Shown piece after piece: positions 35,306-62,897 of a stretch of 64,000 bases of DNA. The stretch lies in contig JAHHII010000007.1 in NCBI GenBank assembly GCA_019358855.1, positions 1 to 64,000 on the forward strand, read 5' to 3'. A program made the position numbers and the translations under genes. The first letter of the stretch is position 1. Each line of letters starts with the position of its first letter. Under the pieces are notes generated by a model that saw only the letters and a list, made by a program, of their open reading frames with translations, was not told where the DNA came from and did no database searches. The stretch comes from Timaviella obliquedivisa GSE-PSE-MK23-08B. Lineage in GTDB: Bacteria > Cyanobacteriota > Cyanobacteriia > Elainellales > Elainellaceae.

Positions 35306-35923
35306 ATGTTTTTGTCAAACCATAAAGCGAATGGGGATCTTCGGTACTCTTTACAAGTTTCTTTAGGAGCAGTGTTAACCCTTATTTTTGTTGGATTGCC
35401 AGCAACTGCCCAATCTGCAACTCCTGAAGCCATTGGTCAATCTGATGAGGTCACCCCATCGTCACCGCTTTATCTTCCCTTTCTAGATGAAGTTCAATAT
35501 TTACCTCCCATTCAACCTGTTCTACCAGAGGTTTCAGAAACCCGCCTCGTGCTTAAGATAAGTGAGCGTATGGTTTATGTTTACCAAGGTAACTCGCTAA
35601 AGGTAAGCTATCCCGTGGCTGTGGGTAAAAAGGGTTGGGAAACGCCGACAGGTCAATTTAAGGTCACTTCAATGCTAGAAAACCCGGGTTGGACAAATCC
35701 TTTTACGGGTGAAGTGGTGAGTGCTGGAGCAGATAATCCTTTGGGGGAGCGCTGGATTCAGTTTTGGACGGATGGTCAAAATGCGATCGGGTTTCATGGT
35801 ACGCCGAGTCGAGAATCTGTAGGTCGGGCGGCTTCCCATGGCTGTGTACGGATGTATAACGAAGATGTTCGCGAACTGTATGCTCTAGTTTTGTTAGGAA
35901 CACCTGTGATAGTAGAACCCTAA
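35306..35923 (+). CDS. L,D-transpeptidase (YkuD domain), exported
   Basis: The product has 205 residues. An N-terminal signal segment (VSLGAVLTLIFVGLPATAQS) is followed from residue 75 by the YkuD domain: RLVLKISERMVYVYQGNSLK, VAVGKKGWETPTGQFKVTSM, GFHGTPSRE and the active-site block SHGCVRM with Cys179. These enzymes make 3-3 cross-links in peptidoglycan or attach lipoprotein to it. The start is ATG 35306. A direct repeat lies on each side, so the gene could be duplicated or lost by recombination between them. Confidence 0.9.
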   Translation: MFLSNHKANGDLRYSLQVSLGAVLTLIFVGLPATAQSATPEAIGQSDEVTPSSPLYLPFLDEVQYLPPIQPVLPEVSETRLVLKISERMVYVYQGNSLKVSYPVAVGKKGWETPTGQFKVTSMLENPGWTNPFTGEVVSAGADNPLGERWIQFWTDGQNAIGFHGTPSRESVGRAASHGCVRMYNEDVRELYALVLLGTPVIVEP

Positions 35924-36341: not shown

Positions 36342-39300
36342 GTGCCGATTATGTCAAATCAAAACAGCGTACAGTGGCAGGCTGGGAATATTATTCTCGA
36401 CTTGTATAAAGTAGTTGGCATTTTGGGGCAAGGTAGCTTTGGCGAGGTCTACAAGACTCGACATTTGGGTTGGAATACTGACCTATCGGTTCATAGTCCA
36501 TCTTCAGCAACTCTTACGGCGTTAGGTGGAAATGAAAACTTTGAGCAGCAGGTTAAAACTTGGATCAGGCTAGGGCTGCACTCTCACATTGCAGGGTGCT
36601 ACTACATCCGCTATGTCAATGACCATCCGTTGGTGTTTACGGAGCATGTGGCAGGCGGCAGTTTACGAAATTGGATTGGCGATCGCCGTCTCTACTCCAA
36701 TGGCACCACACTTGCCTTGCGTCGTATTTTAGATATCGCGATTCAACTTGCCTGGGGGCTTCACTATGCCCATGAGCAAGGCATCATTCACGAGCATGTT
36801 ACGCCTAACACGGTTTTGATGACCGCTGCTGAGGAAGCCAAGATTACTGATTTTGGTTTGGCAAAAGCCGATACTACCGCGATCGCTTACCTGGCTCCAG
36901 AGCAGCACCGTCAAGCACTCTTAACCCAGCAAACTGATTTATGGGGTTGGGGGTTAACGGTGCTAGAAATGTTTGTCGGTCAATGCACCTGGGCAACTGG
37001 GACAACCGCCATGCAGGCATTAGATCATTATTTAGAACATGAACTCAAAGAAGCGCAACTGCCTCGAATGCCTGTGCAAGTTGCCCAACTTTTGCAACGC
37101 TGCTTTCAAGACAGCCCAGACGATCGCCCTGCAAGTTTGAGAGAAGTGGCAAATCTTCTTCAGGCTCTCTACCTAGAAGCAATGGGTCGTCCATATCTGC
37201 GGCAAGAACCGCCCCTGACTCCCACGACCGCGGATGACCTTAATAATAAAGCTGTATTTGCCTGGGATTTGGGGCAACTGACGGAAGCCTTCAGGTTGTG
37301 GGAGCAAGCGTTGATAAATCAACCTCGACATTTGGAGGCTATCTACAATCGAGGGCTAATGTTGTGGCGATCGGGCAGAGTCAGCGATGATCAGGCACTA
37401 CTACGGCAATTAGAGCAGCAATTAGAAATGAGCCGTTCTTCTACGCAAGATTGGCGAGTCGAGTATCTCTTGAGCCTGGTTCAAATGGAGCGAGGGAATT
37501 ACCAGACAGCCCTACAAATTTTAGAAGGAGTTCACGCGAGAGGCATTCAGCAAGACGATATCCGAGCCGCCCTCACCCTAGCAAAAGAGCGTCTGCCCCA
37601 CGCTAAGCAACTACTGCCTCAACTCGGTGAAGCAACCCAGAAAAAACGCACCAATCACAAAATCAAAGCCATCACTTTAAGCCCAACCAGTCTCTATGCC
37701 CTCTCTAGCGGTGAGGAAAAGGCGATACGGCTGTGGGATATTGCTAAGGGGCGGTGTTTATGCCTTTTTAAAGGACATGAAGAACAGGTGCTTTCGGTGG
37801 CATTTAGCCCCGATGGTTGCTCTATTTTGTCGGGGGGCGATGACCAAACAGTGCGGCTGTGGAATGTGGGTGATGCTAGCCAAGTTCATACCTTTGACGG
37901 TGGAGAACGCCGGGTTATAAGGCGAGATACAGGCAACCTATTTAAGCCTCTTGGTATTTTAGTCAATAAACTGCGCAACCTAACTCGCCAATGGGGATCG
38001 CAGGGTCATCAGGGCGCAGTGCGATCGGTGACTTTTAGTGCAGAGGGTCGCTATGTCCTTTCAGGGGGGGATGATCAAGTCATTAAGCTGTGGATGGTGG
38101 CAACGGGTGAGTGTTTGCAGACTTTTCGGCGGCATCAAGGGCGCATATCAACCGTGCTGTTTCATCCCGATCGCCAGCACATTCTATCGGCTAGCGATGA
38201 CCAAACGATCAAAGTTTGGGAGATTGCTACGGGTCAAGCTAAGCAGACTTTTGAAGGACATCACGATCTGACCTCAATGGCTTGTAGTCCAGACGGATTG
38301 TCTGTTTTGGCAGGAGATAATCCTATCAAACTTTGGAATATGACCACCGGGCATATGACCCGAACGTTTGAGGGACATCAGGGAGCCGTCCGAGCGGTGG
38401 CATTTAGCCCAGATGGTCGGTTTTTCTTGTCGGCAGGCGATGATCAACTGCTGAAGCTGTGGGAGGTGAAGACGGGGCGCTGTTTGCGAACTTTCGAGGG
38501 ACATGAATCAGTGATTCGAGCGATCGTCCTGAGTTCAGATGGTCAGCATGTGCTGTCGGCAGATGCGTCAACGCTGAATTGGTGGGCGGTTCATAGCACC
38601 GATGCGCTAGATTTGGCACCGTTACGCCTCTCTAATTTGCAACTCACTGAGCCGGAGATCGGAGGCGATCGCCTCTATGAACAAGAGCTAGCCCAATCCC
38701 AGGCGGCGCTAGAGGAGGGCGATGCGGTTACAGCGGCACAACATATTCGGCAGGCACGGGCACAACTCGGATACAATCGCGGGTCAGAAGCGGTTCAAGC
38801 CTGGCTCAATCTTTATACGGCGCTCCCTCGGCAAACTTTAAAAGATAGCTGGGAGCCTATAGGCTTTGAACGGTACACGGCAGCGTTGCACGCAGTGGCA
38901 TTTAATCTAGCGGGCAACTCTGTTTTAGCAGGCAGTGCCGATGCAACGTTGAAACTGTGGGATATTGCGACCAGTCGTTGTCTTTTAAGCTTTGAAGGGC
39001 ATAAGGGGGAAGTCGCAGCGGTGGCATTGAGTCCGGTCGGACACTCGGCTTTGTCGGGCAGTGCCGATGCGACGCTGAAACTGTGGAATGTGACGACGGC
39101 TGAATGTTTAAGAACCCTAACTGGGCATACCGCTGGAGTGAGTTCGGCGGCGTTTAGCCCAACGGGTCGCTATGCTTTGTCGGGCAGTAGAGATACCACA
39201 CTCAAACTCTGGGAAATTGCCACGGGTCGGTGTTTGCAAACCCTAAAAGGTCACCGAGATGCGGTAATGGCAGTGGCGTTTGGCTCAGATGGGCGATCGG

Positions 39301-41486
39301 TAATATCGGCAAGTGCTGACAAAACCCTGAAGCACTGGGACATTGCCACAGGTGAATGCTTAAACACCTTTGAGGGGCATGTCGCGGCGGTTTATGCGGT
39401 AGATTGGAGTGCAGACGGTCGCTCTGTTGTTTCTGGCAGCGCTGACCAAACGCTGAAGCTGTGGACTACGGACGGCGAGTGTCTACGAACGTTTGCCGGA
39501 CATGCTGGGGCAGTTCGATCAGTTAGCTTAAGTACTGATGGACGATATGCCCTTTCCGGCAGCGATGATAAAACCTGTAAACTGTGGAATGCTGTCACAG
39601 GTGATTGCTTATGGACTTTTGCCGGACATACGGCAGCGGTTCGAGCCGTAAGCCTGAGTCCAGATGGTCGCTATGTGTTCTCAGGTAGCGATGACCAATT
39701 TTGTAAAGCCTGGCTTTTAGATTGGGAATTAGCAGAGCAACCGCCCCGCAATTGGGATGAGGGAGCCAGCCCCTACCTAGAGTCTTTCCTGCGTTTACAT
39801 ACCCCCAGCGTTGGCATCTTGCCTGCTAGTCGTCAGCCTAGCGCTGAAGAAATCACCTTGGCGCTCACCTATGAGGGGACTCCGACCTGGACTGAAGTTA
39901 ATTTCAACAATTTAATGCAAACGTTGAAGGCAGCAGGCTATGGCTGGCTGCAACCCAATGGCGTGCGTCAGCAGTTGAACCAAATGGTGAAGGCGATCGC
40001 CAAACCTGTTGCCCCAATTGCCCAAGTCGTCCAAGTCGCCCAAGTTCCGGCTTCGCCCGAAGCTCCGGCTCCCTTCGCCACAGCGTTTGCAACTGAATTC
40101 GCCACAGCATTTACCTCGTCTGAACCCAAGGCTAAAGTGATCTTGAGCGTGATTGCGGGCAGTTTGCAGGGATTAGAAGTGGAATTTGACGATCGCACCA
40201 TTTGCATTATTGGTCGCGCCAAAGATTGTCATGTGCAGTTGCCCAATGACGAGTTGCACAAAACGATTTCTCGCTACCATTGCCTCCTCGACATTAATCC
40301 TCCGGCTGCCCGGATTCGTGATCTAGGCAGTCTGCACGGCACCTACATCAATGGTCAAATGATTGGCAAACGTCAACGCGACCAAACGCCTGAAGAGGGG
40401 GCTCAAATAAATTTTCCAGAACATGACCTGGCTGATGGCGATGAAATTAAGCTGGGACAAACTATCTTTTCCGTCAAGCTAGAATCCCTTGCCAAGGATG
40501 AACCTGTCGATGCAGGAACTAACAAACCTCTTAATCCTTTCACTGGCTTCCTCAATAGCGTGCCTTTAGTGGAATCATCGGGTGGTGAATCAGGTCATGA
40601 GAACGGCTTAGAGTTGCCTCTTATTGAAGGGTACACGCCAGTAAAACAGTTGACTATCAGTGAAGCAGGGGTGACGTACTTAGCTCGGCAAAACGCCACC
40701 GATCAACTGGTCACTCTGAAGGTCATGCTGCCCCAAAAGGCAGTACGACCTTCGGTTGTGGAAGCCTTCTTGCAGGAAATAGAGCTAATTAAAACCTTGC
40801 AGCATCCCAGTATTATTCGGCTTCTAGATTCTGGCTATCAGAATGATGCCTTTTTCTTTGCCATGGATGCTTGTGAGGGTGGCAGTGTGGTTGAGCTAAT
40901 GCAGCAACGGGGCGGACGCTTGCCTGTAGATGAGGCAGTAGCGATCGCCCTACAAGTCTTAGAAGGTTTGGAGTATGCCCATCAGGTTAGGCTCCCCGTT
41001 GGCAGATTCACTGAGCGATCGATGCGTTCTGCTCAAGGCTTAGTTCACTGTGACCTCAAACCGAGTAATATTTTGCTGTCGGCTGGGTCTGTGCAGACGG
41101 TTAAAATTGCTGACTACGGTTTAGCCAAAGCCTTTGACCAGGCTGGTTTAGGGGGATTATCCATGAGTGGAACGGCAGCTAACCTGCCTGTATTTATGCC
41201 CCGACAGCAGGCGGTTAATTTTAATTATGCTGAGGCTGAAGTGGATGTTTGGGCGATCGCCGCCTGTCTCTACTACATGCTGACCGGAACATACCCACGA
41301 AACTTCAGCAGCGGCAAAGATCCTTACCTTGTCCTCTTACAAACCGATCCGATCTCGATTAGCCAGCGAGAAGTAACGATCCTTCAACCGATAGCCAATT
41401 TAATTGACCAAGCTTTGGTCGATAATCCCCAAATTATCTTTAAAACGGCAACAGCCTTTAAACAAGCCTTAAAGGAGATCTCTTAG
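36342..41486 (+). CDS. Pseudokinase-TPR-WD40x14-FHA-kinase giant signalling protein
   Basis: The protein has 1714 residues (GTG 36342; ATG 36351 is an alternative). Residues 15-285 have a kinase fold (LGQGSFGEVYK, TDFGLAK), but the catalytic loop is HEHVTPNTVL in place of HRDxKPxN and the VAVK Lys position reads LSVH, so it should be inactive. Residues 295-425 are TPR-like. Residues 440-760 and 843-1131 each contain seven WD40 repeats (SPDGRFFLSAGDDQLLKLWE type), enough for two full propellers, separated by a helical spacer. Residues 1264-1376 form an FHA domain with GRAKDCHV, SRYHC and LGSLHGTYING, which binds phospho-Thr. Residues 1428-1712 are a second kinase with VTLKVM, HCDLKPSN and DYG, probably active. 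It looks like a self-contained phospho-signalling scaffold. Confidence 0.9.
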   Translation: MPIMSNQNSVQWQAGNIILDLYKVVGILGQGSFGEVYKTRHLGWNTDLSVHSPSSATLTALGGNENFEQQVKTWIRLGLHSHIAGCYYIRYVNDHPLVFTEHVAGGSLRNWIGDRRLYSNGTTLALRRILDIAIQLAWGLHYAHEQGIIHEHVTPNTVLMTAAEEAKITDFGLAKADTTAIAYLAPEQHRQALLTQQTDLWGWGLTVLEMFVGQCTWATGTTAMQALDHYLEHELKEAQLPRMPVQVAQLLQRCFQDSPDDRPASLREVANLLQALYLEAMGRPYLRQEPPLTPTTADDLNNKAVFAWDLGQLTEAFRLWEQALINQPRHLEAIYNRGLMLWRSGRVSDDQALLRQLEQQLEMSRSSTQDWRVEYLLSLVQMERGNYQTALQILEGVHARGIQQDDIRAALTLAKERLPHAKQLLPQLGEATQKKRTNHKIKAITLSPTSLYALSSGEEKAIRLWDIAKGRCLCLFKGHEEQVLSVAFSPDGCSILSGGDDQTVRLWNVGDASQVHTFDGGERRVIRRDTGNLFKPLGILVNKLRNLTRQWGSQGHQGAVRSVTFSAEGRYVLSGGDDQVIKLWMVATGECLQTFRRHQGRISTVLFHPDRQHILSASDDQTIKVWEIATGQAKQTFEGHHDLTSMACSPDGLSVLAGDNPIKLWNMTTGHMTRTFEGHQGAVRAVAFSPDGRFFLSAGDDQLLKLWEVKTGRCLRTFEGHESVIRAIVLSSDGQHVLSADASTLNWWAVHSTDALDLAPLRLSNLQLTEPEIGGDRLYEQELAQSQAALEEGDAVTAAQHIRQARAQLGYNRGSEAVQAWLNLYTALPRQTLKDSWEPIGFERYTAALHAVAFNLAGNSVLAGSADATLKLWDIATSRCLLSFEGHKGEVAAVALSPVGHSALSGSADATLKLWNVTTAECLRTLTGHTAGVSSAAFSPTGRYALSGSRDTTLKLWEIATGRCLQTLKGHRDAVMAVAFGSDGRSVISASADKTLKHWDIATGECLNTFEGHVAAVYAVDWSADGRSVVSGSADQTLKLWTTDGECLRTFAGHAGAVRSVSLSTDGRYALSGSDDKTCKLWNAVTGDCLWTFAGHTAAVRAVSLSPDGRYVFSGSDDQFCKAWLLDWELAEQPPRNWDEGASPYLESFLRLHTPSVGILPASRQPSAEEITLALTYEGTPTWTEVNFNNLMQTLKAAGYGWLQPNGVRQQLNQMVKAIAKPVAPIAQVVQVAQVPASPEAPAPFATAFATEFATAFTSSEPKAKVILSVIAGSLQGLEVEFDDRTICIIGRAKDCHVQLPNDELHKTISRYHCLLDINPPAARIRDLGSLHGTYINGQMIGKRQRDQTPEEGAQINFPEHDLADGDEIKLGQTIFSVKLESLAKDEPVDAGTNKPLNPFTGFLNSVPLVESSGGESGHENGLELPLIEGYTPVKQLTISEAGVTYLARQNATDQLVTLKVMLPQKAVRPSVVEAFLQEIELIKTLQHPSIIRLLDSGYQNDAFFFAMDACEGGSVVELMQQRGGRLPVDEAVAIALQVLEGLEYAHQVRLPVGRFTERSMRSAQGLVHCDLKPSNILLSAGSVQTVKIADYGLAKAFDQAGLGGLSMSGTAANLPVFMPRQQAVNFNYAEAEVDVWAIAACLYYMLTGTYPRNFSSGKDPYLVLLQTDPISISQREVTILQPIANLIDQALVDNPQIIFKTATAFKQALKEIS

Positions 41487-59969: not shown

Positions 59970-62897
59970 ATGCCCATGACCCTCACCCAAGTTTGGGGAC
60001 TGTTGCTCATCTTGCTCCTCTGCCCTATTTTGGGCGGACTTCCTCTCATTCGTTGGATGACCCGCAGCCTGACTGGCAAAGACCTTGCCAAAATTGGCAC
60101 AGGTAACGTCAGCGTTTCAGCCGCTTTTTACCATGGGGGAAAAGTCGTGGGCATCTTGGCAGTCTGTTCAGAAGCCTTAAAAGGCATTGCCGCAGTGCTT
60201 TTAGCCAGATATTTTTTTCCTGCCGATGCTGCCTGGGAAATTGTGGCACTCATTTCGCTGGTTATGGGACGCTATTGGGGAGGCAAGGGGGCAGGTACAA
60301 CCAATGTCGTTTGGGGTTATATTGCCCATGATTGGGTGAGTGCAGGGTTGATTTTTGTGATTAGTAGCGCCATTTTTACCTTGCTCCGCGAGCGGCGATC
60401 GGGCAAACTAGGCGTTTTAGTTTTGATTCCACTCATGACGGCATTACGCCATCCACTAGAGGGAGCAAGAATCGGATCGACAGTAATTCTATCTGCGTTA
60501 ATCGCTTGGATTTACCAAAAAATTCCCGATGATTTAGAACTACCAACTGGAACTGTTCAGGGAGATTCTCGCCAAATGTTTCGTTTTTTTCAAGGCGATC
60601 GTGCCATCCCCACGCTAAACCAAATCCTTCATCCTGATAAAGTAGGCGCAAAAGCCGCCACCCTTTCTCGTCTCAATCGCAGTTACCCGATTCCTCCCGG
60701 CTGGGTATTGCCCCCCGGAGACGATCCGGCTCCGCTCATGGAGCTATTGAATCCCTCCGTTGAAGCACCTCTGATTGTGCGCTCTTCTGCAATTGGAGAA
60801 GACTCAGAATTCGCTTCCGCCGCAGGGCAATATGAATCGATCGCCAACATTACAAGCAAAGCTGCATTAGAACAAGCCATTCTCCGGTGCCAAAATTCCT
60901 ACAATGCGCCCAACGCTTTGCGCTACCGTCAAGACCAGGGCGTTGCCGAACAAAGCATGGCAGTTTTAGTGCAAGTACAAATACAGGGCGTATTTTCGGG
61001 CGTGGCATTTAGTCGTGATCCGATCGCTCGTCAAGGCGATGCCGTCATCATCGAAGCCCTTCCGGGCATGGCTTCTAGCGTCGTCTCTGGGCAAGTTACT
61101 CCTGAGCAATATCGCGTTACCATCAGCAGTGCTACCTCGGTAGAATCATTGGATAGCCCAGGCTGGATTCTTCCAGATGACCTCAACTTGGAGGTTGAAG
61201 GTAGCGGCGAAATCCCTCCCCGACTCATACAGCAAGTAGCATTCCTGGCAAGGCATTTAGAAGAACATCACTACGGCATTCCCCAAGATATTGAGTGGAG
61301 CTACGATGGTCATCAACTTTGGGTGCTGCAATCTCGTCCCATTACCACGCTATTGCCCATTTGGACGCGCAAAATTGCTGCCGAAGTCATTCCAGGATTT
61401 ATTCATCCGTTAACCTGGTCGGTTAATCGTCCGTTAACGTGTGGCGTGTGGGGCGATATTTTTACCGTGGTGCTGGGCGACCCTTCCGGTAACGGCAAAG
61501 CCGCGCGCGCGTGTGGACTCGATTTTTCCAAAACTGCGACGCTCCATCACTCTGCCGCCTACTTTAATGCCTCTTTGTTGGGGCAAACTTTTCAGCAAAT
61601 GGGCTTACCCGCCGAAAGCCTTGAGTTTCTGACTAGAGGCGCAAAATTCAGCAAGCCGCCCATTGGCTCAACTTTGCGCAACGTGCCTGGACTATGGCGA
61701 TTGGGACAACGCGCATGGCGGCTAGAAAAAGACTTTAACCAAGATGTTCGCCAATATTTTGATCCCGCCTTTCTAAGTCTGTCGCCGCCGCCGGAGCAAC
61801 TGCCGATCGCCTTGCTATTTCGCCGAGTTGAGCAAGTTCTAGATCTGTTAAAACGAGCCACTTACTACAGCATTATGGCTCCGCTGAGCTTGGCATTGTG
61901 GCAAGCGTTGCTGAATGTGAAAGAGTTAGATCAGCAGCAGTTACCCGAAGTCGCTTCTCTGCGATCGCTCCAATCGATCGCCACCCATGCTACTCTTCCT
62001 CAGCCTCCAACATCCTTCGCAGACCTTTCCGCTACATCTGCTGGACAAGCCATCTTGCAAGAGTTCGATCGCTTTCTCCAGCAATATGGCTACCTGAGTG
62101 ATGTGGCGACCGACATCGCGGTGCCTCGGTGGAAAGACTCACCGCAGATGTTGCAAAATTTGCTAATGGAGTATTTGATTAACCCTAAAGAATCGAATCC
62201 TAAAGAAAGCCGTGACGAACGAAAGCGCCCAACCTGGAAAACGAAGCAAGTGCAACGACGGCTTGATCTAAAAGGACGAGTTACCACGGTTTACAGCAAG
62301 CTGCTAGCAGAATTGCGCTGGAGCTTTGTGACAATAGAGCAGCAGTGGTTAACCGCAGGATTGCTGACAGAGCCAGGGGATATTTTCTTCCTTAAACTCG
62401 ACGAAATTAAACAACTTATTGCCGATGATCCAGAACTCCGCGATCGCCGCTCTCAAATTATTGCCGAACGGAAATTGCAGCTAGAAAGCGATCGTCAAGC
62501 CACTCCTGCCATGCTGGTCTACGGCAACGACCCACCCCGCCTCGCTCCTCCCTCCTTCACCCCTCTGCAAGCTGCCCAACAACTCCAGGGGATTGGCGCT
62601 AGCCCTGGACAAGCTGAAGGCTGGATCGTAGTAGTTCAAAATCTCCAGTCCATTCCCCCTATCAACCGCGAAACTATCCTCGTAGTGCCGTATACCGATT
62701 CGGGATGGTCGCCCTTGCTGGCACAGGCAGGCGGACTGATTGCCGAAGTCGGCGGACAACTTTCCCATGGGGCGATCGTGGCGCGTGAGTACGGCATCCC
62801 CGCAGTGATGAACATTTCCCATGCTACCCAGAAGTTACGGAACGGGCAGCGGGTTCGCATTGATGGGCGATCGGGGACAATTTACATCGTGCAGTGA
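59970..62897 (+). CDS. Fusion of PlsY-like acyltransferase and PEP synthase/PPDK-like domains
   Basis: The product has 975 residues. Residues 1-190 form a membrane domain of about five helices resembling glycerol-3-phosphate acyltransferase PlsY; motif 2 survives as GRYWGGKGAGTTN, but motif 1 (TGNVSVSAAFYHGGK) is altered and the C-terminal His-containing motif 3 is not evident. Residues 225-470 are the nucleotide-binding part of PEP synthase (GAKAATLSRLNRSYPIPPGW, VRSSAIGEDSEFASAAGQYE, VVIEALPGMAS-type, WSYDGHQLWVLQSRPI). Residues 885-970 are the PEP-utilising swivelling domain with the phosphorylated His near 933 (GGQLSHGAIVAREYGIPAV). The PEP-binding barrel appears replaced by a helical middle. 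Copy g of the dispersed element is read as GDPSGNGKAAR near residue 503. Confidence 0.8.
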   Translation: MPMTLTQVWGLLLILLLCPILGGLPLIRWMTRSLTGKDLAKIGTGNVSVSAAFYHGGKVVGILAVCSEALKGIAAVLLARYFFPADAAWEIVALISLVMGRYWGGKGAGTTNVVWGYIAHDWVSAGLIFVISSAIFTLLRERRSGKLGVLVLIPLMTALRHPLEGARIGSTVILSALIAWIYQKIPDDLELPTGTVQGDSRQMFRFFQGDRAIPTLNQILHPDKVGAKAATLSRLNRSYPIPPGWVLPPGDDPAPLMELLNPSVEAPLIVRSSAIGEDSEFASAAGQYESIANITSKAALEQAILRCQNSYNAPNALRYRQDQGVAEQSMAVLVQVQIQGVFSGVAFSRDPIARQGDAVIIEALPGMASSVVSGQVTPEQYRVTISSATSVESLDSPGWILPDDLNLEVEGSGEIPPRLIQQVAFLARHLEEHHYGIPQDIEWSYDGHQLWVLQSRPITTLLPIWTRKIAAEVIPGFIHPLTWSVNRPLTCGVWGDIFTVVLGDPSGNGKAARACGLDFSKTATLHHSAAYFNASLLGQTFQQMGLPAESLEFLTRGAKFSKPPIGSTLRNVPGLWRLGQRAWRLEKDFNQDVRQYFDPAFLSLSPPPEQLPIALLFRRVEQVLDLLKRATYYSIMAPLSLALWQALLNVKELDQQQLPEVASLRSLQSIATHATLPQPPTSFADLSATSAGQAILQEFDRFLQQYGYLSDVATDIAVPRWKDSPQMLQNLLMEYLINPKESNPKESRDERKRPTWKTKQVQRRLDLKGRVTTVYSKLLAELRWSFVTIEQQWLTAGLLTEPGDIFFLKLDEIKQLIADDPELRDRRSQIIAERKLQLESDRQATPAMLVYGNDPPRLAPPSFTPLQAAQQLQGIGASPGQAEGWIVVVQNLQSIPPINRETILVVPYTDSGWSPLLAQAGGLIAEVGGQLSHGAIVAREYGIPAVMNISHATQKLRNGQRVRIDGRSGTIYIVQ
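61475..61508 (+). repeat. Dispersed 34-bp element, copy g (in PlsY-PEP synthase fusion)
   Basis: A variant copy: GGGCGACCCTTCCGGTA, ACGGCAAAGCCGCGCGC. It is closest to copy f and is read as GDPSGNGKAAR, the same frame as copy b. Confidence 0.75.

Follow-up and report, generated by a model that had tools for sequence, protein, structure and literature searches.

A probable phospho-threonine-reading scaffold with two kinase folds, two WD40 propellers and an FHA domain in one cyanobacterial family

Introduction

To our knowledge, bacterial pseudokinases have been little studied. In the mycobacterial PknB–MviN–FhaA system, a kinase phosphorylates the tail of a pseudokinase, an FHA protein is recruited, and peptidoglycan synthesis is inhibited (PMC12599244); the CP1 pseudokinases of cyanobacteria and proteobacteria, in turn, are linked to the predicted ATPase domain COG3899 (PMC12599244). 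Two other cyanobacterial architectures are described in passages of two kinase surveys (PMC2176072, PMC1262709): proteins combining FHA and kinase domains, e.g. alr0548 and alr4954 of Anabaena PCC 7120, and the PkwA-type WD40 kinases, found also in actinobacteria, in which an N-terminal Hanks kinase is followed by a WD40 propeller.

Here we describe a gene in a 64,000-nucleotide stretch of DNA from Timaviella obliquedivisa (the window), the product of which, hereafter the scaffold, would by analogy work most like PknB–MviN–FhaA, yet is not a member of that system. Both bring together an FHA reader with a pseudokinase, and both involve a Ser/Thr kinase in the membrane and a link to the cell wall, here by gene neighbourhood only. 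They differ in that the scaffold's pseudokinase and FHA domain share a single polypeptide, to which two WD40 propellers and a TPR region also belong; the scaffold moreover has neither an MviN flippase part (Pfam) nor a transmembrane segment (hydropathy), and is neighboured by a kinase with MORN rather than PASTA repeats. The ATPase domain of the CP1 pseudokinases is likewise missing from Pfam scans of the scaffold. As in the PkwA type, an N-terminal kinase fold precedes a WD40 propeller, but here that fold is a pseudokinase, a TPR region intervenes, and a second propeller, a tail, an FHA domain and a second kinase follow. The resemblance to alr0548 and alr4954 is drawn at the level of FHA plus kinase architecture.

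Architecture of the scaffold

The gene and its parts are as follows, residues being numbered in the open frame.

36351..41486, forward strand: scaffold gene, with a likely ATG start at 36351 and an in-frame GTG upstream at 36342
36390..37196, forward strand: N-terminal kinase fold, a pseudokinase with His51 for the VAIK Lys, His152 for the HRD Asp, and DFG kept
37230..37604, forward strand: TPR region of about 3.5 repeats, with seven helices in the AlphaFold model
37611..38588, forward strand: WD40 propeller A, seven blades by repeat HMM and AlphaFold model
38661..38846, forward strand: helical linker joining the propellers, residues 774–835 in the AlphaFold model
38859..39716, forward strand: WD40 propeller B, seven blades by repeat HMM and AlphaFold model
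39732..40016, forward strand: conserved tail domain, residues 1131–1225, WDEG..PYL ... W.E..F..L...L..AGYGWL
40074..40115, forward strand: Thr array FATAFATEFATAFT, just N-terminal of the FHA domain
40131..40421, forward strand: FHA domain with GR / SRYH / NG phospho-Thr-binding residues
40617..41483, forward strand: C-terminal kinase fold, retaining Lys1460, HCD Asp1571, Asn1576 and DYG Asp1591 but not the Gly loop or P+1 Thr

The forward-strand frame 36342–41486 is open across 1714 codons. The ATG at 36351 (residue 4 of the frame) is the likely start because the relatives' proteins begin MSNQ, and the predicted product is then 1,711 residues long. A Pfam scan placed a kinase domain at each end, plus WD40 repeats, TPR and FHA, so that one gene encodes, in order, a kinase fold, TPR, a WD40 propeller, a helical linker, a second WD40 propeller, a conserved tail, FHA and a second kinase fold. 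Frame, Pfam and relatives all bear out the layout given in a first-pass annotation of this DNA, and since it recurs full-length in eight further genomes it is not a product of chance. That annotation had also found the layout unfamiliar; in agreement with this, the passages of the two surveys (PMC2176072, PMC1262709) list no protein that combines a pair of kinase folds and a pair of propellers with an FHA domain.

A WD repeat HMM, built from the window protein itself and run on it and 10 relatives, gave 14 repeats (7 + 7, the two blocks of seven originally described) in the window and in nine of the 10 relatives, one of which has a marginal repeat, and 13 in the tenth. An AlphaFold model of residues 4–1150 (mean pLDDT 79, WD parts about 90) contains the N-terminal kinase fold, and forms each WD block from seven four-stranded blades with an N-terminal closing strand (residues 424–428 and 840–842); both blocks are thus predicted to close as propellers, as the first reading had supposed. 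Between its blades 2 and 3, propeller A carries a low-confidence insert (residues 522–553, about 35 in all). For residues 1145–1714, modelled from nine sequences, pLDDT was 56, and fold matches there support the FHA and kinase folds only. The best match to this FHA-kinase half is Rad53, a eukaryotic checkpoint kinase that is catalytically active. The structure matched is the FHA-kinase of PDB entry 5xzw, and the likeness is one of fold order only.

Two elements were absent from the first-pass list of parts. The tail, which carries AGYGWLxPxGVR, has no Pfam match, is nearly restricted to the scaffold's protein family and is strongly conserved. All 11 sequences compared have a Thr array of this kind, FATAFATEFATAFT in the window, and it may be a phospho-acceptor cluster. 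The FHA domain itself, described at first as a phospho-Thr reader, looks functional: the residues that define phospho-Thr binding (GR, SxxH, NG; in a passage of PMC1262709) are present in the window, and the contact residues GR, S, H and N are invariant among nine full-length sequences. The linker from FHA to the C-terminal kinase often carries D[QRE]T motifs in relatives (DQTAL, DRTVIG, DETAL; loci L032–L042), even where the C-terminal kinase is lacking; these motifs are missing from the window.

Distribution and origin by fusion

We searched a class-level sample of 390 genomes with the N-terminal 433 residues. The scaffold family was found in 14 genomes, the window's own included, at 42–85% identity for the others; ordinary kinases follow only after a sharp drop, at E about 1e-20. 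All but one of these genomes come from the window's own family (13 of the 36 sampled there), which in this sample is the whole of its order, so that an order-level search returns the family-level set again. A domain search across cyanobacteria had been proposed for this domain order; orthologues are found in 13/36 genomes of the window's own order, and a split form in one outside. Eight relatives are full length (open frames of 1635–1744 codons), two (G180, G145) have 1378–1379 codons, ending after FHA without the C-terminal kinase, and the copies in G233 and G291 are frame-broken in draft assemblies and had their motifs read piecewise.

The FHA-kinase half exists as a separate gene of ~450 codons in other cyanobacterial families, and the C-terminal half of the scaffold is a fused relative of these stand-alone proteins, DYG and PRQ signatures being common to both. 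It differs from them in being joined to a kinase-TPR-double-WD40 protein, and in the loss of catalytic residues in most fused copies. In a tree of 25 FHA-kinases the fused copies form one clade with support 100/100, and one fusion therefore explains them all.

The split form, in a genome of another family (G256), has the kinase-TPR and WD40-tail stretches unfused on two contigs, with an intact FHA-kinase gene 1.5 kb after the WD40-tail gene and complete motif sets in both kinases. The WD40 contig starts with what reads as a transposase-like end, and the kinase-TPR and WD40-tail stretches were apparently parted by an insertion. These comparisons show that the scaffold arose once, when a kinase-TPR-WD40-WD40-tail protein and a stand-alone FHA-kinase protein were joined; judged by G256 and the stand-alone relatives, both parent kinases were catalytically intact.

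The FHA-kinase gene of G256 overlaps a gene for a PP2C phosphatase (L087:3585-5723). This phosphatase gave no match in the other loci compared, and the kinase-phosphatase pair was not seen at the fused loci.

Erosion of the kinase folds

The N-terminal fold had been described as having lost its catalytic Lys and HRD Asp, and so it proves: His51 occupies the Lys position and HRD reads HEH, with DFG intact. Matches of this domain to tyrosine kinases among PDB sequences were set aside as generic kinase similarity. Across the family, the HRD Asp is lost in 11 of 13 fused copies and kept in G159, G186 and the split G256. A single change accounts for this on the tree, and the site has since varied among His, Asn, Gln, Ser, Ala and Trp; the VAIK Lys is retained in five of the 13.

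For the C-terminal kinase, part of the original description stands: Lys, Asp, Asn and DYG are present in the window. The glycine loop and the P+1 Thr, on the other hand, are lost, the window reading LTISEAGV against LGKGGFGE in stand-alone kin (two of three glycines gone) and NLPVFMPRQQ against GTPxFMPRQQ. Its PRQ in place of APE is shared with intact stand-alone kinases, and thus only the loss of the P+1 Thr, not of the APE Glu, is telling. The catalytic Asp survives in four of the 10 readable fused copies (window, G233, G220, G159) as against 13 of 14 stand-alone copies, having been replaced by Asn, Ala, Arg or Ser in the other six. Parsimony over the whole 25-sequence tree gives four Asp changes; a stand-alone copy accounts for one, which leaves at least three within the fused clade. 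Five orthologues (G193, G125, G200, G099, G131) lack the Asp in both kinases. The C-terminal VAIK Lys is retained in 11 of 11 copies read, and only one copy lacks the DYG Asp.

Passages of one survey (PMC2176072) report both that Cys is found in place of the HRD Arg in cyanobacterial kinases and that SpkE, a cyanobacterial kinase lacking the Asp and several other conserved residues, showed no kinase activity. Some members of the scaffold family may be catalytically active, since Lys, Asp and DYG of the C-terminal kinase are kept in the window, in its only congener G233 and in G220, while in G159 neither kinase has lost its Lys or its catalytic Asp. The window's own C-terminal kinase might still be weakly active, though we think this rather unlikely.

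Between the window and G233, dN/dS is 0.021 for FHA, 0.155 for the C-terminal kinase (low in absolute terms) and 0.09–0.15 elsewhere; every domain is under purifying selection (0.02–0.16), and the protein is therefore in use. By these rates FHA is the most constrained domain of the scaffold. Measured against FHA, the C-terminal kinase diverges about twice as fast in fused copies as in stand-alone ones (kinase-to-FHA distance ratio 1.96 +/- 0.19 versus 0.97 +/- 0.10). After the fusion, then, both kinase folds lost catalytic residues in most lineages while FHA was almost fixed.

The family can be read as an ordered series, from two intact parents through one fusion to the loss of catalysis in both kinases with the phospho-reader held, for which living intermediates exist. 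In G256 the parts are separate and intact; G159 is fused and retains both Asp; the window is half-eroded; others have neither Asp; and G180 and G145 lack the second kinase. Each step from kinase to scaffold thereby becomes testable.

Gene neighbourhood

Two genes upstream of the scaffold are of interest.

32541..34364, forward strand: Ser/Thr kinase (MORN kinase), one predicted transmembrane helix with MORN repeats beyond, catalytic motifs intact; the candidate writer
35306..35923, forward strand: L,D-transpeptidase (YkuD), catalytic SHGCVRM

In nine of 13 genomes the L,D-transpeptidase gene is the immediate upstream neighbour of the scaffold and shares its strand; in a tenth (G125) it adjoins a divergent kinase that flanks the scaffold. 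The exceptions are G193, G099 and G131, where the two genes are not neighbours. An intact Ser/Thr kinase with one hydrophobic segment and MORN repeats precedes the L,D-transpeptidase in the window and five other genomes. Among scaffold genomes, 11 of 13 encode a MORN kinase; for the other genomes the count is 4 of 23 (Fisher p 0.0002, uncorrected for kinship). Because the kinase-transpeptidase pair is also found without the scaffold (in G152 and G066, as well as in G118 and G173, where the MORN matches are weaker), the scaffold probably joined an older, pre-existing pair. A literature search returned nothing on a MORN kinase and peptidoglycan in cyanobacteria, and the locus points to an unstudied link there between Ser/Thr signalling and L,D-transpeptidation.

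Other neighbours were rejected: as partners, a downstream metallophosphoesterase and CofG, which are conserved in the congener alone; and as MORN kinases, those encoded around the scaffolds of G099 and G131, which have WD40 or a different domain.

Between the MORN kinase and the L,D-transpeptidase (34453–34878, forward strand) lies a secreted-looking Thr/Ser/Pro repeat protein of 141 residues, which was matched to no family. The MORN kinases, by eye, also carry short Thr motifs ahead of the membrane segment (APTSF, VFATAY, VFETAL) that resemble the scaffold's FATAF array; it is possible that these juxtamembrane motifs and the array are shared phospho-sites.

A phospho-reading scaffold and its alternatives

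Catalytic residues have been lost in most relatives, FHA has hardly changed, and a membrane kinase and a cell-wall enzyme lie adjacent; for these reasons we favour an envelope phospho-reading scaffold over a self-contained kinase. It seems to us reasonably probable that the protein reads phospho-threonine and is served in trans, its kinase folds acting as switch or structural parts. The mark would be written mainly in trans, most likely by the neighbouring MORN membrane kinase, and FHA would dock on phospho-Thr either in that kinase itself or in Thr clusters of the scaffold linkers, with FATAFATEFATAF and the juxtamembrane peptides as candidate ligands. TPR and the two propellers would hold clients. 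The N-terminal pseudokinase may be structural, because its Lys has been lost repeatedly; the C-terminal fold, with its ATP-binding Lys in every copy read, could be a nucleotide-sensing switch. The output may concern the cell wall, to judge by the two neighbouring genes, for the membrane kinase and the L,D-transpeptidase, although proximity of genes is in itself no proof that one product phosphorylates another. More tentatively, these parts may make up a new envelope module confined to a single order (MORN kinase, L,D-transpeptidase and soluble FHA scaffold with an ATP-binding, non-catalytic switch), a single-chain counterpart of PknB–MviN–FhaA reached independently.

The first-pass annotation had instead made an active C-terminal kinase the engine that phosphorylates the scaffold, e.g. 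at the Thr array, or a client held by the propellers, with FHA reading the mark and the N-terminal pseudokinase regulating. Lys1460, Asp1571, Asn1576 and the DYG Asp in the window, the same Lys, Asp and DYG in G233, the occurrence of Cys for the HRD Arg in cyanobacterial kinases (in a passage of PMC2176072) and the position of the Thr array immediately N-terminal of FHA all fit this model, which we nevertheless consider unlikely: the window lacks two Gly-loop glycines and the P+1 Thr, kinase constraint is relaxed relative to FHA, and G180 and G145 keep FHA without any C-terminal kinase. As a conserved engine it finds no support, given an Asp lost in 6/10 fused copies against 1/14 stand-alone ones, its faster divergence, and an intact kinase next door; the neighbouring membrane kinase is the better candidate writer.

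A pairing like that of JAK, in which the N-terminal pseudokinase folds back to control whatever activity the C-terminal kinase has left, would suit two kinase folds on one chain, the first of which lost its Asp once and early and yet kept its fold. It is improbable in view of the five orthologues without Asp in either kinase and the two in which the N-terminal fold persists with no C-terminal partner. Neutral drift toward a pseudogene, to which repeated catalytic losses and two relatives without the C-terminal kinase might point, is most improbable given long open frames in eight genomes besides the window, dN/dS values that contradict it in every domain, strongly conserved FHA and tail, and a conserved neighbourhood.

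Further observations in the window

Upstream of the MORN kinase, on the reverse strand (28632–31465), an anti-sigma (RskA) gene stands beside a gene that reads as sigma-factor-like and one for an RTX-like repeat protein, an order preserved in the congener G233. At 59970–62897 (forward strand), a single frame joins a PlsY-like glycerol-3-phosphate acyltransferase domain to PEP-synthase-type domains (PPDK_N, PEP-utilizers).
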